From the NCBI GenBank assembly GCA_936920195.1, contig CAKZHE010000228.1:1-62041 (forward strand): 62,041 bases of DNA, in the 5' to 3' direction. Positions 2,378 to 51,840 of this stretch are shown in pieces (positions within the stretch are counted from its first letter, which is position 1; every line of letters starts with the position of its first letter). The notes under the pieces were generated by a model that saw only the letters and a program-made list of their open reading frames with translations, did no database searches and was not told the origin of the DNA. The translations under genes and the position numbers were made by a program. The stretch is from an uncultured cyanobacterium (GTDB taxonomy: Bacteria > Cyanobacteriota > Cyanobacteriia > Cyanobacteriales > FACHB-T130).

Positions 2378-3160
2378 ATGGCAACTTCTTTTGTGTGTTC
2401 TAGAGTAATCGAACTGCTGACTGCATATTCCAAAAATCCCAGCGTGAAAATTCGCAATCAGCTAGTGCAATTAAATATTGGGTTGGTACGCAAAATTGCC
2501 TATAGAGTTAGCCAACAGTGCGCCGAACCCTACGAGGATTTGGAGCAGATTGGCTATCTTGGTCTAATCCATGCCATTGAAAGATTTAAGCTCAATCAGG
2601 GCTGTGCTTTCAGTTCCTTTGCCGTACCTTACATTCGCGGCGAAATGTTGCATTTTTTGCGAGATAAAGGCAGCACGATCAAAATTCCCCGCCGCTGGCA
2701 AGAACTGCAAAAAGAAGGTCAAAGAGTCCGCAAGGAATTAGCAGAAACCTTGGGAAGGTTGCCGAAGGATGCGGAAATGGCGGCGGCGCTGCAAGTCTCG
2801 GTGCAAGAATGGCGGGAAAGTAAGATGGCGGTGCAAAATCGCTTGCCCTTGAGTTTGGATGCTACGGTTGGTCAAATGCTTGATTATCCAGTAACTTTAG
2901 GTGAAACGCTGCCAGATTCTCGCTACTACGCCCAGCAAAATCTTGAGGAAGACCGTCAGCAGTTGCAGGGAGCTTTGGGACAATTGGAAGAGAAAACCCA
3001 AGCTGCGATTGAGTTTGTTTATCTGCGAGAGTTGCCGCGCAAGGAAGCGGCTCATCGGATTGGGGTTAGTCCAATGACAGTGACTCGGCGCTTGCAAAGG
3101 GGGATTGAGCAGTTGGTGTCAATTTTGCAAGCTCAGAATCCGGAGCCTGTGGCAAGTTGA
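2378..3160 (+). CDS. sigF: RNA polymerase sigma factor SigF, group 3 (SigB/SigF type)
   Basis: 260 residues. Region 2 is seen in EPYEDLEQIGYLGLIHAIERF followed by FSSFAVPYIRGEMLHFLRDKG (about residues 50-100). Region 3 follows with RRWQELQKEGQRVRKEL, and region 4 has the helix-turn-helix RKEAAHRIGVSPMTVTRRLQRG (about 217-240). Length and sequence fit cyanobacterial SigF, which in Synechocystis drives pilus and motility genes and in other species responds to light or stress. Unlike sigB of Bacillus, no anti-sigma (RsbW) gene lies beside it. The start gives MATSFVCSRVIELL, a normal N-terminus. A heptamer array begins five bases after the stop codon. Confidence 0.9.
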   Translation: MATSFVCSRVIELLTAYSKNPSVKIRNQLVQLNIGLVRKIAYRVSQQCAEPYEDLEQIGYLGLIHAIERFKLNQGCAFSSFAVPYIRGEMLHFLRDKGSTIKIPRRWQELQKEGQRVRKELAETLGRLPKDAEMAAALQVSVQEWRESKMAVQNRLPLSLDATVGQMLDYPVTLGETLPDSRYYAQQNLEEDRQQLQGALGQLEEKTQAAIEFVYLRELPRKEAAHRIGVSPMTVTRRLQRGIEQLVSILQAQNPEPVAS

Positions 3161-3165
3161 TCAAA

Positions 3166-3288
3166 TAGGGAACAGGGAACAGGGAACAGGGAACAGGGAA
3201 CAGAGGGAATAAGGGAACAGGGAACAGGGAACAGAGGGAATAAGGGAATAAGGGAATGGGGAATAGGTAATAGGGAATGAAAGGGAAT
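3166..3288. repeat. Heptamer array (AGGGAAC/AGGGAAT)n
   Basis: About 15 units of a 7-base motif fill the space between sigF and the convergent DUF4335 gene. Similar arrays lie at 5384-5458, 38935-39068 and 51676-51770. Heptamer arrays of this kind are known in filamentous cyanobacteria as STRR sequences. Short open frames across them are artefacts. Confidence 0.85.
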
Positions 3289-5273: not shown

Positions 5274-5383
5274 AGACCGATCTCTTCCTACTAGCTGTGT
5301 GGATTGGTTGATTTAGGCAAACTGTGTAAAACAGCCTGCAAACTTAAGGATACCTGAATTCGTATAGCTTGGGTTTGTCCATA

Positions 5384-5458
5384 TAGGGAATAGGGAACAG
5401 GGAACAGGGAACAGGGAACAGGGAACAGGGAATTGGGAATTGATAGGGAATTGGGGAT
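5384..5458. repeat. Heptamer array (AGGGAAC)n upstream of apt
   Basis: About nine units, mostly AGGGAAC, in the divergent 314-base space between the DUF3038 gene and apt. Nothing else recognisable is in this gap. The array ends about 130 bases before the apt start codon. Confidence 0.8.
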
Positions 5459-7410: not shown

Positions 7411-7490
7411 CGGTTCTCAATTTGGTGCAGTACGCTTTTACTCTTGAAACCCTTTCCCTGCATACAGTTAGATGTACTTCATCTATTTGA

Positions 7491-7605
7491 ACTGGTTCCT
7501 AGGCAGAGCCTAGGAACCGATATCGAGAGGCTCTGCCTCGCTTGGTTATCATCCGAGGCAGAGCCTCTCAATCGGCATTCCCAGGCAGAGCCTGGGAACG
7601 AGTAA
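7491..7605. repeat. Triple-hairpin dispersed repeat, copy 1
   Basis: Three palindromes in a row: GGTTCCTAGGC with GCCTAGGAACC, GAGAGGCTCTGCCTCG with CGAGGCAGAGCCTCTC, and TTCCCAGGC with GCCTGGGAA. The same set recurs at 40182-40305 and 46686-46834. A short (AATTTTG) array follows at 7609-7624. Confidence 0.85.
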
Positions 7606-23295: not shown

Positions 23296-23448
23296 ATAGT
23301 GCGAAGCTCTGCGTTGTCGTAGCGATGCCCAAGGCAATAGCGCGATCGCTTTTCTGTTGTCTGGAATAGCAGAGAGCGATCGCTTTTGGTGATGTAATGA
23401 AAAGAGCGATCGCTTCTTTGTAAAAGTGAAACCTTGGCAATATATTGT

Positions 23449-23790
23449 TCATTCACCAATAATTTCTAACAAAGCATTCTTCACAGCTTGACGGTCCACT
23501 TCTTTAAGTTCTCCCAGTTTCCTAATTACAAGCACTTTCTCAACAGTAGCAAGAATCGGCTTGATAATTGACGGCTTAATTAAACCTGCTTCTCTCCACT
23601 CATTAATTATTACCTCACCTAGCACCAGCACAACTTGAATTTGACTGGTTATAGCCATAATAATAATGTCATAATGTTGGCGATTATAGCCATCAGAGCT
23701 AACCACTACTGCTGGACGCTTCTTACTGGTTGTTTGGTCAGTAAAAGGGAATGGAACGAGGACAACATCAGCAAATTTATAGCTGGTCAT
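23449..23790 (-). CDS. MazF/PemK-family toxin
   Basis: 113 residues from the ATG at 23790 (MTSYKFADVVLVPFPFTD). The family core is VPFPFTDQTTSKKRPAVVVS, followed by YDIIIMAITSQ and GLIKPSIIKP. MazF-like toxins are endoribonucleases that cut mRNA at short sites. The frame is open to 23877, but this overlaps the antitoxin. With the chosen start the overlap with the antitoxin gene is 14 bases, normal for such pairs. Expressed with the antitoxin from a leftward promoter. Confidence 0.85.
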   Translation of the reverse strand: MTSYKFADVVLVPFPFTDQTTSKKRPAVVVSSDGYNRQHYDIIIMAITSQIQVVLVLGEVIINEWREAGLIKPSIIKPILATVEKVLVIRKLGELKEVDRQAVKNALLEIIGE

Positions 23791-23995
23791 ATTCAGCATC
23801 TTCAGGGTTATCCCAGATTGTTTGAAAAGCGTTTGCAGAAAGCTTGAGAGATGCTTGAGCGAGGCGAATATTTTCATCTCGCTGGTACAGAAAATCTACA
23901 AAATTTACTACCTCTGCTACCTTTTCTGGAGGTAAGCTGCGGATCTTCTCAATTAATATGCGTTCCAGAGATCCATAAGTATTTGTACTTTCCAT
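23777..23995 (-). CDS. Antitoxin (DUF2281-like) of the MazF-type toxin
   Basis: 72 residues from the ATG at 23995 (MESTNTYGSLERILIEKIRS). LPPEKVAEVVNFVDFLYQRD is the typical core of DUF2281/VapB-like cyanobacterial antitoxins, and the tail is acidic and aromatic (FQTIWDNPEDAEYDQL), suited to fill the toxin groove. It precedes and overlaps the toxin gene and would repress the shared promoter. Confidence 0.75.
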   Translation of the reverse strand: MESTNTYGSLERILIEKIRSLPPEKVAEVVNFVDFLYQRDENIRLAQASLKLSANAFQTIWDNPEDAEYDQL

Positions 23996-24108
23996 TGCCA
24001 ATGAAGTGTAAGGTGATTGGACTTCCCAGATTCTACTCTATTCTCTTCCAAAAACCTATGCTAGCCTAAACTCAAGTAGCGATTATCAAGTGCTAGTACG
24101 ATTGGTTG

Positions 24109-24180
24109 TCTGGAATAGTGGATGGCGAAGCTCTGCGAGCGCGCTAGCGCTATCGCTGTAGAATGGGAGAAAGCGATCGC
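24109..24180. repeat. Direct repeat, copy 1 (left of vapBC)
   Basis: 72 bases repeated at 24918-24989 with a single mismatch. It begins TCTGGAATAGTGGATGGCG and ends in the HIP1-like AGCGATCGC, with an inner palindromic GAGCGCGCTAGCGCT. Weaker relatives occur at 23297-23425 and near 18190-18240. The two good copies bracket the VapBC module. Confidence 0.85.
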
Positions 24181-24218
24181 TTTTCTGTTATCTGGAATGG
24201 TGGAGAGCGATTGCGCTT

Positions 24219-24614
24219 TTACCAAATAGTCTGAACGTGGGGATAATCCAAAATTTTCTCATCACAGGTGACAAGAGAAATACCATACCGTCGGGCGATC
24301 GCTACTAAAATTCGATCTGCTGGATCTTTATGAAAATCTCCTGGAAGTTGCGTACTGGCAATCGCATCTAGCGGATTTAAAGGCTCAATCACTGTTCCTG
24401 AATGTTGTTTAGCTTGGTTATACCAGTCTTCAATTGATAAGGGTAAAGTCAGTTTCCCAATATTTGCCTTAACTGCCACTTCCCAAACTGAAATAGCAGA
24501 AATTAACAAACCATTCTGTTCTGACTCAAATTCAATAACGCGATTGGCAGCATCAGACAACTGATTGGGATTGTGCAGCAACCATAGCCAAATATGTGTA
24601 TCCAGTAAAATCAT
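24219..24614 (-). CDS. PIN-domain toxin, VapC type
   Basis: 131 residues from the ATG at 24614 (MILLDTHIWLWLL), six codons inside the longest frame. PIN acidic residues are seen in LLDTHIW, SVWEVAVK and DPADRILVA. VapC toxins are Mg-dependent ribonucleases, often of tRNA or rRNA. The ATGA overlap (24611-24614) with the antitoxin stop fixes the start and shows translational coupling. Confidence 0.9.
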   Translation of the reverse strand: MILLDTHIWLWLLHNPNQLSDAANRVIEFESEQNGLLISAISVWEVAVKANIGKLTLPLSIEDWYNQAKQHSGTVIEPLNPLDAIASTQLPGDFHKDPADRILVAIARRYGISLVTCDEKILDYPHVQTIW

Positions 24615-24844
24615 GAACCCAACGCATCCCAAAGATCTGCCATTGGCGCATCAAAATCTTCGGCAATTATGATTGGTAAATCTCTGAGAGGATAATGCTT
24701 CTGGGATACTGAATCAACATTTGACGACAAACCAATTGGTATAGATCGATTCGCCTGCGTTAAACGCAAAATACTCAACAAAACTTCTAGCACTTCATCA
24801 GATGCCTGCTCAATTTCCTGAATCAATTTTTCACGAACAGTCAT
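24611..24844 (-). CDS. VapC-associated antitoxin
   Basis: 77 residues: MTVREKLIQEIEQASDEVLEV followed by LLSILRLTQAN, a DUF2281-like helical start, then a flexible linker and an acidic end (EDFDAPMADLWDALGS). It precedes the PIN gene with a 4-base overlap, the classic antitoxin position. No HTH is obvious; DNA binding would reside in the N-terminal half. Confidence 0.75.
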   Translation of the reverse strand: MTVREKLIQEIEQASDEVLEVLLSILRLTQANRSIPIGLSSNVDSVSQKHYPLRDLPIIIAEDFDAPMADLWDALGS

Positions 24845-24917
24845 TTTCTAGAACCTCTTAGCTGAGACAACAGGAGCCTCTATCAATTTTAACCTAAAGG
24901 CGATCGCCTTTAGGTTA

Positions 24918-24989
24918 TCTGGAATAGTGGATGGCGAAGCTCTGCGAGCGCGCTAGCGCTATCGCTGTAGAATGGGAGAGAGCGATCGC
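24918..24989. repeat. Direct repeat, copy 2 (right of vapBC)
   Basis: Matches 24109-24180 with one mismatch (position 24980, G for A). It lies between the antitoxin gene and the rightward RelE-type pair. Confidence 0.85.
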
Positions 24990-25034: not shown

Positions 25035-25259
25035 ATGACTGACACAATGCCAATCTCTCAATTTCAACAAGCTATTGACGTTATAGAAGCCTTATCTCTA
25101 GAAGAACAGCAACAGTTGTTAGAACTACTATCCCAACGACTCCGACAACAGCGCCGCCGTCAAATGGTTCAGGAAATTCAGGAAGTTCATCACGAGATCG
25201 CCCAAGGAAATATCCAATACGGTTCCGTGAAAGATTTTCTAGCGGAGTTAGACGCTTGA
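25035..25259 (+). CDS. Antitoxin of the RelE/YafQ-type pair
   Basis: 74 residues, MTDTMPISQFQQAIDVIEAL. The pattern SLEEQQQLLELLSQRLRQQRR then EIAQGNIQYGSVKDFLAELDA is common in small cyanobacterial antitoxins preceding RelE-like toxins. An alternative start is the ATG at 25047. Its stop codon overlaps the TTG start of the toxin, so the genes are coupled. Confidence 0.75.
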   Translation: MTDTMPISQFQQAIDVIEALSLEEQQQLLELLSQRLRQQRRRQMVQEIQEVHHEIAQGNIQYGSVKDFLAELDA

Positions 25260-25543
25260 GACAAATTGCTTGGAGTCCAAAATCATTGCGTGCTTTTAAA
25301 CGCATGGTGCGTCAAAATCCTCAACTGCGCTCCTTAATTGAGGCAACCCTAAATCAACTTGCAGCAGATCCATTTCACCCCACCTTAAAAACCCATAAGC
25401 TATCAGGCGAACTAGCCGGGATTTGGGCTTGCTCTATTGACTACAATTATCGAATTTTGTTTGAGTTTATTATTAGCCCAAATGAGGCAGAAGAAGATGC
25501 TATTCTCCTTTTAAATATGGGTAGCCATGATGATGTTTACTAA
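25256..25543 (+). CDS. RelE/YafQ-type mRNA interferase toxin
   Basis: 95 residues starting at TTG 25256 (MRQIAWSPKSLRAFKRMVRQN). Family blocks are HPTLKTHKLSGELAGIWACSI, DYNYRILFEF and the end MGSHDDVY, the usual YafQ/StbE tail. Such toxins bind ribosomes and cleave mRNA in the A site. The TTGA overlap with the antitoxin decides the unusual TTG start. Confidence 0.85.
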   Translation: MRQIAWSPKSLRAFKRMVRQNPQLRSLIEATLNQLAADPFHPTLKTHKLSGELAGIWACSIDYNYRILFEFIISPNEAEEDAILLLNMGSHDDVY

Positions 25544-38934: not shown

Positions 38935-39068
38935 CCTCATTCCCTATTCCCTCATTCCCTCATTCCCTCATTCCCTCATTCCCTCATCCCTCATCCCTCA
39001 TCCCTATTTCCTATTTCCTATTCCCTATTCCCTATTCCCTATTCCCTGTTCCCTGTTCCCTGTTCCCT
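38935..39068. repeat. Heptamer array (CATTCCCT/ATTCCCT)n between xseA and xseB
   Basis: About 19 units of ATTCCCT, CATCCCT and GTTCCCT fill the whole intergenic space. It is the reverse complement of the AGGGAAT/AGGGAAC arrays at 3166 and 5384. Confidence 0.85.
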
Positions 39069-39069
39069 T

Positions 39070-39312
39070 ATGAGCATCAATCAATCTAGTCCTAATTTAA
39101 CTGAAGCCAAAATTTCTCCAGATTGGAATTATGAAGCAACTGTTGCTCAAGTAGAGGAAATTTTATCTCAAATTGAATCGGGCGAATTGGAATTAGCCGA
39201 GGTTTTTGAGCAGTTTGTTACGGCAGTAAAATATTTAGATCAATGCGAAACTTTTTTGGAGGAGCGCCGACAAAATATAGAACTAATTGTGGAACAGTTA
39301 GCTGATAATTAA
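39070..39312 (+). CDS. xseB: Exodeoxyribonuclease VII small subunit
   Basis: 80 residues. The family core is [20 protein letters not shown] then [21 protein letters not shown], two helices that bind the XseA coiled coil in several copies. It starts (ATG 39070) at the end of the heptamer array, so its ribosome-binding region is repeat sequence (CCCTTATG). Length is normal. Confidence 0.92.
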
Positions 39313-39806: not shown

Positions 39807-40459
39807 TTGATAACTCCTAAAAAATAAAAAACCAGTGAAATTAATTGCCGTTGTGTGGCTGTTCAGTCTAACCTACATTAATTAAATTGACAATCTCAAT
39901 TTAATTAATGAATATTAATCTTTTGGCGGATACAGTAGGAGCGAATGGCATTCGCCCACTATATAAATGTTGGGTTTTCTAAAAGTCCACGCTTAGTAGA
40001 CTAAAATCTTTTCCTAGTCCTCTTTAGAGGACTTTGACTATTAGCCGGAGGTTTAAACCTCCGAGCGGGTAAACGGGAAGGCAGTTCGCTTGGTTATCAT
40101 CCGAGGCAAAGCCTAGGCTGTTGACTTTGCGAGTTTTTGAACAATTTTACTCATGCAATAACTGTGTCTGATTTTCCCTGGCTGGTTCCTAGGCTCTGCC
40201 TGGGAACCGATATCGAGAGGCTCTGCCTCGCTTGGCTATTATTCGAGGCAGAGCCTCTCAATGAGCATTCCCAGGCAGAGCCTGGGAACGAGTAAACGAG
40301 TAGATTAGGCGCTATATGACAAATTTCAGCCTTTGGCACTTGGACGCAATTTCTCCGTCACCATATTTATGCTTAGAAAGCGGCACACTATCCCACCAGC
40401 CGCTCTGTCCAAATGTTAAAGTTTAGTAAAGAAGCTCACTGAGTTCAGGTAAAAAGCCT
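39807..40459. other. 653-base gene-free region holding repeats
   Basis: Contains a pair of palindromes (40016-40033, AGTCCTCTTTAGAGGACT, and 40046-40063, CGGAGGTTTAAACCTCCG), then the triple-hairpin repeat copy 2 (about 40182-40305). No gene is supported. The promoter of the DUF2808 gene is presumably in the last 100 bases. Confidence 0.6.
40182..40305. repeat. Triple-hairpin dispersed repeat, copy 2
   Basis: Same order of three palindromes as at 7491-7605: GGTTCC-AGGC type, GAGAGGCTCTGCCTCG with its inverse, and TTCCCAGGC with GCCTGGGAA. A degenerate piece (CGAGGCAAAGCCTAGG) lies at 40100-40116. Confidence 0.8.
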
Positions 40460-46602: not shown

Positions 46603-46836
46603 ACTGGTTTCCAGGCAGAGCTTGGGTAGGCTGTTGACTTTGTGCCTTTTTAGGAGTTTTCTGTTCATGCAGTTTCTTGTCTGTCTACTCGTTCCCAGGC
46701 TCTGCCTGGGAATGCCCATCTACTCGTTCCCAGGCTCTGCCTGGGAATGCCCATTGAGAGGCTCTGCCTCGCTTGGCGGTCATCCGAGGCAGAGCCTCTG
46801 GATATCGGTTCCCAGGCCGAGCCTGGGAACCAGTTA
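46603..46836. repeat. Triple-hairpin dispersed repeat, copy 3 with duplication
   Basis: From 46686 the TCGTTCCCAGGCTCTGCC hairpin is present twice in tandem, then GAGAGGCTCTGCCTCG with inverse CGAGGCAGAGCCTCTG, and GGTTCCCAGGCCGAGCC. A degraded piece lies at 46603-46630. It fills the 46583-46940 gap, and apparent ORFs in it are translated repeats. Confidence 0.8.
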
Positions 46837-46940
46837 GGGGATGTCATACACGGTTATTGCATGAATAAAATTGCATAAGTCCTGGTTCAGATATGATATC
46901 AATCCTAATAATATTATTCCCCAACTAAAGTTCCAGAAAA

Positions 46941-51607: not shown

Positions 51608-51650
51608 TGGGGTGATGGGGTGATGGGGTGATGAGGAGATGGGGTGATTG
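51597..51650. repeat. Octamer array (GATGGGGT)n at the tatD stop
   Basis: About six units of GATGGGGT, one degenerate (GATGAGGA), starting within the last tatD codons. It complements the array at 2162-2219. Confidence 0.8.
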
Positions 51651-51675
51651 AGAATTACCAATAACTTCTATTATT

Positions 51676-51840
51676 ACCTATTACCTATTCCCCGTTCCCT
51701 ATTCCCTATTCCCTATTCCCTAATCCCTATTCCCTATTCCCTATTCCCTATTCCCTAATCCCTATTCCCAATTCACAATTCACTAAAGAAAAAAAAAATA
51801 CCATATTACCTTTTCCCTATTCCCCGTTCCCTGTTCCCTC
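51676..51840. repeat. Heptamer arrays (TATTCCC)n upstream of rpoB
   Basis: About 13 units at 51676-51770 and a second short block at 51812-51840, separated by AATTCACAATTCAC and an A-rich stretch. Same family as 38935-39068. Confidence 0.85.

Follow-up and report, generated by a model that had tools for sequence, protein, structure and literature searches.

The 72-bp direct repeats that bracket a vapBC module in the DNA of an uncultured cyanobacterium are probably ordinary copies of a composite dispersed repeat, which bracket the module through the intergenic placement of their outer element, a hairpin repeat that we call R1. The window, by which we mean the whole stretch of DNA analyzed, is 62,041 nucleotides long, and the features discussed here are collected in Table 1. 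The locus adds a new example to kinds already known, with an SDR-type element inserted into a hairpin repeat that has HIP1 ends, and with this combination flanking a toxin-antitoxin (TA) module on either side. The original prediction read this structure correctly and over-read it as a TA-specific device. The locus bears on the question of how TA modules of two genes can be mobile when they encode no recombinase, and its geometry is concrete and testable; the sequence evidence favors an ordinary dispersed repeat. Judged by title, the leading literature matches included nothing on repeat-bracketed TA modules in cyanobacteria.

Table 1. Coordinates of genes and repeats in and around the vapBC module (positions in the window)
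Feature	Position	Strand	Basis
vapC, PIN-domain toxin	24219..24632	-	Pfam PF01850, 8.4e-15
vapB, predicted antitoxin	24611..24844	-	No Pfam match; called from position and from homologues adjoining vapC elsewhere
PemK/MazF-like toxin, neighboring module	23449..23877	-	PF02452, 5.1e-14
DUF2281 protein, the PemK module's predicted antitoxin	23777..24001	-	PF10047 above cut-off; VapB-like NCBIfam match below cut-off
relB-relE module to the right of vapBC	25035..25543	+	25256-25543 above cut-off of TIGR02385 RelE/StbE; without R1 bracket
Left composite repeat copy (R1 dimer with 24-nt insert in central HIP1)	24104..24180	+	75/77 identical to 24913-24989; alignment of eight R1 copies; originally given as 24109-24180
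Right composite repeat copy, including HIP1-containing left end	24900..24989	+	Repeat comparison, R1 alignment; originally given as 24918-24989
24-nt insert splitting HIP1 (GCG / ATCGC), left copy	24128..24151	+	Conservation edges in 28 distinct genomic copies
24-nt insert splitting HIP1, right copy	24937..24960	+	Same conservation edges
R1 monomer bracketing PemK-DUF2281 together with the 24173 copy	23342..23383	+	Repeat comparison, R1 alignment
R1 monomer between left composite copy and vapC, overlapping the left copy's end	24173..24214	+	Repeat comparison, R1 alignment

Comparison of positions 24109–24180 with 24918–24989 bore out the predicted pair of 72-bp repeats. The two copies are equal at 71 of 72 bases, the sole difference being an A at 24171 and a G at 24980, and extending the match in the 5′ direction to 24104 and 24913 adds one further mismatch, giving 75 of 77. 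Chance similarity is ruled out by this length and by the 71/72 identity. The near-perfect homology, 72–77 bp long, recurs at a distance of 809 bp and ends abruptly on either side of both copies. It had also been claimed that the repeats bracket the vapBC pair, and nothing else, exactly. Both genes are indeed enclosed, but "exactly" was slightly generous, as the left copy ends 38 nt short of the vapC stop codon and vapB lies 73 nt from the right copy, and a shorter, additional copy of R1 (24173–24214), which makes up most of the 38 nt, had been missed.

The enclosed pair is a member of a real TA family, type II VapBC, with a predicted toxin and a predicted antitoxin. As in other type II VapBC modules, the PIN-domain toxin carries the conserved acidic motifs, present when it is aligned with homologues, and is preceded by an overlapping small gene; the flanking repeats are the sole unusual feature seen. 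In a 20-row alignment of VapC (18 rows from other genomes and two from the window itself, with one row containing a stop shown as X), residue 7 is M or V in every row, with ILLDTH coming next, and the true start of vapC is likely the ATG at 24614, which is residue 7 of the ORF and overlaps the vapB stop codon as ATGA. Of 29 homologous loci, 28 have a match to vapB, in some cases partial, next to that to vapC; L118 is the exception. The three TA modules of the array are oriented minus, minus, plus. R1 is present in each of the array's gaps of 153, 217 and 190 nt and is missing from a gap of 36 nt. Since R1 sits in intergenic gaps and the array has three gaps longer than 100 nt, each with R1, bracketing of vapBC would follow from placement of this kind.

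R1 is a 42-nt hairpin repeat with HIP1-type ends, of which pattern and BLAST searches of the same genome located at least eight copies, distributed over four places: four in the TA array, two on contig C8, one on contig C182 (~160 nt from the contig end, adjoining a protein-kinase gene) and one on contig C86. Eight is a lower bound, as BLAST scored 40 of 106 candidates, surroundings were read for 30 of the 72 places of a 14-base pattern, and the search patterns miss copies more degenerate than their mismatch limits, which may exist. When aligned, the eight copies fall into three forms: monomers (at 23342, at 24173 and on C182), dimers (both on C8) and filled dimers (at 24104, at 24900 and on C86). 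Monomers end in HIP1 or near-HIP1 sequences, and one dimer on C8 (C8a) has the central HIP1 intact at the point of insertion and represents the natural unfilled form. The filled dimer on C86 is the third full-length copy of the 72-mer in the genome (C86:38110-38181, 92% identity) and has the same insert at the same place. From this alignment of monomers, dimers and filled dimers, the 72-mer is a nested repeat whose copies go back to a common ancestor that already contained the insert. With REP/REPIN and other palindromic intergenic repeats, R1 has in common a short hairpin unit, single or dimeric, that lies between genes; it differs from REP/REPIN in its HIP1-type ends and in its low copy number as far as found (eight), and the likeness is one of form.

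The insert that fills the dimers has a wider distribution than R1. Its borders, GCG and ATCGC, are the HIP1 palindrome GCGATCGC opened by 24 nt after the third base. A search of the genome with the 72-mer gave at least 40 matches (40 of 102 candidates were scored), three of full length and 37 partial; among the matches listed, 36 of the 37 partial ones span all or most of a central 32-nt core. This core occurs at more than 30 further places, with unrelated flanks and in many cases inside long open frames. In 28 distinct copies (loci L003–L030, which were picked by similarity to the block, leaving the edges alone informative), the conserved block opens with GCG and closes with ATCGC, and none of the 20 columns beyond it on either side exceeds 54% agreement. 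For one copy within a gene (L025), the 24-nt insert was tested as an 8-residue gap, and its location is a variable linker. On contig C121, a 487-codon open frame contains two core repeats in opposite orientations, 186 nt apart (L009:1501-1719).

SDR5 is a small dispersed repeat of cyanobacteria, reported by Elhai and colleagues in 2008. According to a further paper, SDR5 inserts precisely between nucleotides 3 and 4 of HIP1 (PMC4390886). The insert described here is likewise a short module between nucleotides 3 and 4 of HIP1, with many copies within and between open frames, and by its insertion site it can be classed as a putative SDR5-like, or SDR-type, element; the likeness is one of insertion position and dispersal. 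Unlike SDR5, one copy here is nested in another repeat and has been duplicated along with it. Nested copies, a dispersed core and R1 as monomer, dimer and filled dimer are all found in one genome, in which a small dispersed repeat can be seen within a hairpin repeat whose unfilled and filled forms coexist.

How could such a pair have come to flank vapBC? If the repeats are ordinary composite copies, a 42-nt R1 hairpin with HIP1-type ends would have given rise to a head-to-tail dimer sharing one HIP1, and an SDR5-like 24-nt element would then have entered the central HIP1 of this dimer. Copying of the filled composite, through ectopic conversion or transposition, may subsequently have seeded a small number of intergenic sites, among them the two gaps beside vapBC. 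With both copies in place, RecA recombination or slippage between them could remove vapBC.

The expectation that recombination between the repeats would remove the module and leave a single repeat follows from the geometry, although the analysis turned up neither a deletion nor an empty site. In a study of small variable segments, the RecA threshold for E. coli is quoted as 30 bp (PMC2884548), which the 72–77 bp of homology in the pair exceeds. The same study states that 10–18% of small variable segments in three species have flanking direct repeats and that recombination between these repeats may account for part of such variation (PMC2884548). The vapBC segment is like the segments described there in consisting of ~0.8 kb between direct repeats and in being losable by recombination; it differs in that it comes from one genome, with no variation seen, and in that most repeats in that study are shorter than 30 bp (PMC2884548). 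Deletion of vapBC by repeat recombination is plausible as an ordinary route, and the toxin might impose selection against such loss.

The position of the R1 monomers, just downstream of pemK (23342) and of vapC (24173), and their plus-strand folds, with raw values of −24.3 and −17.7 kcal/mol, raise the question of whether the hairpins are kept between operons for a role in RNA, as 3′ stabilizers, processing sites or weak terminators that insulate the TA operons. We find this improbable, as the transcribed (minus) strand folds more weakly (−16.8 and −6.4) and the right composite copy is upstream of vapB, not downstream. For a terminator role in particular, a pattern scan gave no support: none was detected at R1, and the region contained one site elsewhere compared with 1.9 expected from shuffles.

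A further possibility, raised by the original prediction, is that TA cassettes are gained by way of the repeat. On this reading, vapBC would have arrived on a circle or fragment together with one R1, which recombined with a resident R1 and so left a direct repeat on either side, the repeat providing the homology of entry; the reverse event would delete the module, and small TA cassettes would use R1 copies as landing pads. We consider such an entry unlikely, although several observations are in its favor. Of the eight R1 copies, six are confined to two loci and flank segments of small genes there. R1 brackets the PemK-DUF2281 module as well as vapBC, and on contig C8 two unfilled R1 dimers bracket ~1 kb (L160:6154-7308) that contains a HicB-like antitoxin gene, above the Pfam cut-off, and three small ORFs without a family above any cut-off. 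The abrupt ends of homology at the repeat edges are also as expected for entry by recombination. This association of R1 with cassettes exceeds the expectation for a random repeat, R1 being of low copy number as far as found, and counts against the reading of the pair as ordinary dispersed copies.

Other features of the same genome argue against entry through the repeat. The RelBE module of the array is not bracketed; its flank repeat score is 13, compared with 71 for vapBC and 27 for PemK-DUF2281, both bracketed by R1. No recognized TA gene adjoins the 72-mer copy on C86, whose neighbors are a 108-codon ORF without a Pfam family, with an ABC-transporter ATPase beyond, and on the other side a penicillin-binding transpeptidase. 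The suggested search for the repeat beside other TA genes gave a mixed picture, with R1 bracketing PemK-DUF2281 and the HicB-like segment, and not RelBE. In a genome-wide comparison that covered the PIN and PemK families, one of the 38 listed 72-mer matches outside the window falls within 1.5 kb of any of 25 hits (21 PIN and 4 PemK, compared by eye); it is a core repeat ~100 nt upstream of another PemK-type module (C273:13786-13823, near L182:2142-2179). For the 32-nt core and the C86 copy, the scattering of the core, its unrelated flanks and the lack of a recognized TA gene at C86 rule out a TA-specific repeat. Random occurrence without association with cassettes had been named as the outcome that would refute the proposal; the core is widely scattered, and R1 is associated with cassettes more than expected for a random repeat. 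Bracketing by repeats of any kind is rare in this genome, as a bracketing repeat with a score of at least 24 within 500-nt flanks was found for 1 of 20 PIN modules, namely the vapBC module described here (a PIN hit on contig C211 was left out), and for 1 of 79 gene controls; the next-best PIN modules score 21 and 19.

If R1 served as a point of entry, it might be expected near vapBC elsewhere. The module has a patchy distribution, which is consistent with entry: with two candidates scored per genome, DNA matches at E ≤ 0.001, a large share of which are short, were obtained from 92 of 387 other genomes in the order and from none of five in the same family, and one of 72,556 plasmid records gave a match (66.9%). 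Yet R1 (≤4 mismatches of 23) and the core (≤5 of 32) were absent within 1.5 kb of all 29 vapBC homologues in other genomes, so that travel of R1 or the core with vapBC was seen at 0 of the 29 loci; among 30 longer stretches around vapBC loci, a single R1-like place was seen (L235). A search with the 77-mer, two candidates being scored per genome, gave matches from 10 of 387 other genomes, all confined to the core region. With up to three mismatches, the 23-base R1 pattern occurs at seven places in its own genome, three of them without mismatch, and at 97 places in 74 other genomes, all with 2–3 mismatches, compared with 17 for a reversed control (counted by eye). As HIP1 is missing from both ends of all 29 inspected places in other genomes, 21 of which fall within open frames of at least 150 codons, the excess matches, as far as inspected, are not R1. 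A scan of genome_contigs, from which the genome's own records may be excluded, gave five matches to the R1 pattern in unrelated bacteria, taken as chance, and a composite R1-plus-core pattern gave none in viral_contigs.

In one distant genome (G092), close homologues of vapB (77%) and RelE (75%) lie within 1.7 kb without a match to R1 (L245:9948-11610, on contig C26), which also argues against R1 as a landing pad. At that locus, vapC is truncated at ~20 codons and continues as a HigB toxin domain (PF09907, 1.6e-30), and relE is split over two frames; TA modules there appear to have overwritten one another without R1. Among the 30 stretches around vapBC or an empty counterpart, RelE was present in this one, rearranged locus and a PemK match in two (L240 and L244).

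Direct repeats other than R1 do occur around vapBC. With a score of at least 24 and up to 500 nt on both sides, they bracket 6 of 28 vapBC homologues, some of which rest on partial matches with approximate edges, compared with 13 of 258 ORF or ORF-pair controls from the same stretches, called with a simple script (Fisher one-sided p = 0.006; treating the two same-genus loci as one gives 0.019). The 28 are the best loci from 28 of the 92 other genomes matching vapBC, with L239 (no vapBC) and L240 (two partial copies) excluded. These statistics, which fit entry by recombination, suggest that repeats around vapBC may be somewhat commoner than around other small genes, with no one repeat responsible. 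The remaining 22 homologues have no bracketing repeat above the cut-off, and the six that do differ in repeat sequence, two being the duplicated end of a neighboring gene and the rest HIP1-rich or other local repeats; both observations weigh against a shared landing pad. It is quite unlikely that R1 is a private landing pad of this genome, between whose copies TA modules (PemK, VapBC and HicB-like so far) are gained, lost and swapped singly, by recombination of resident copies with incoming or circularized modules that carry R1, without an integrase. In a single genome, capture through R1 would look identical to a pair capable of deletion. Given the C86 copy without a TA gene, the 1 of 38 listed matches near PIN or PemK genes and the 29 homologues without R1 or core, the proposal that the repeat is the means of gaining TA cassettes is unsupported; cassette capture via the repeat is possible but unsupported.

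An empty site with a single repeat, which the original prediction had suggested looking for in related genomes and which entry or deletion would leave, was not found in relatives with CPBP, RelE, vapBC or R1 searches. The 388 genomes compared include no genus-mate, no R1-bearing relative was found, and the locus is not syntenic in relatives. At 29 loci from other genomes that carry the neighboring CPBP gene, no other protein of the window's TA array was matched alongside. The neighboring RelE was matched in 236 of 387 other genomes, and none of the 29 RelE loci fetched has vapBC, PemK, DUF2281 or CPBP alongside. In genus g11, vapBC lies between direct repeats of 317 nt in G040 and ~256 nt in G080 (L220). 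The G040 repeats (L219:1916-2232 and 2884-3200) are 95% alike, and in both genomes the repeats consist of the 3′ end of a neighboring gene, which by eye we take to be an EAL-domain gene. Three further genomes, G289, G062 and G012, align on the left side up to or into the left copy, and G289, of the same genus, is without vapBC at the edge of the left copy and has a different right flank. Because the right flank is absent, these three are not clean empty sites.

TA cassettes are common in integrons, and several modules stand in a row here, so that the repeats could be imagined as attachment sites of a dedicated site-specific recombinase, either integron-like or belonging to a small integrative element. 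This is very improbable: the segment between the copies consists of vapBC and R1, without a recombinase, the orientation of the modules alternates, and the core is scattered at more than 30 places. The repeat sequence also does not resemble the attC core, and an attC-like site was rejected on the attC consensus together with module orientation.

The window contains repeats of other kinds. Heptamer arrays of the CCCTATT or GGGAACA type are present at 3157-3281, 5375-5450, 38946-39075 and 51648-51839 and look typical of cyanobacterial short tandem repeats. An element of ~115–153 nt with internal palindromes occurs in inverted and direct copies at 40142-40294 and 46721-46873, and also at 7490-7605.
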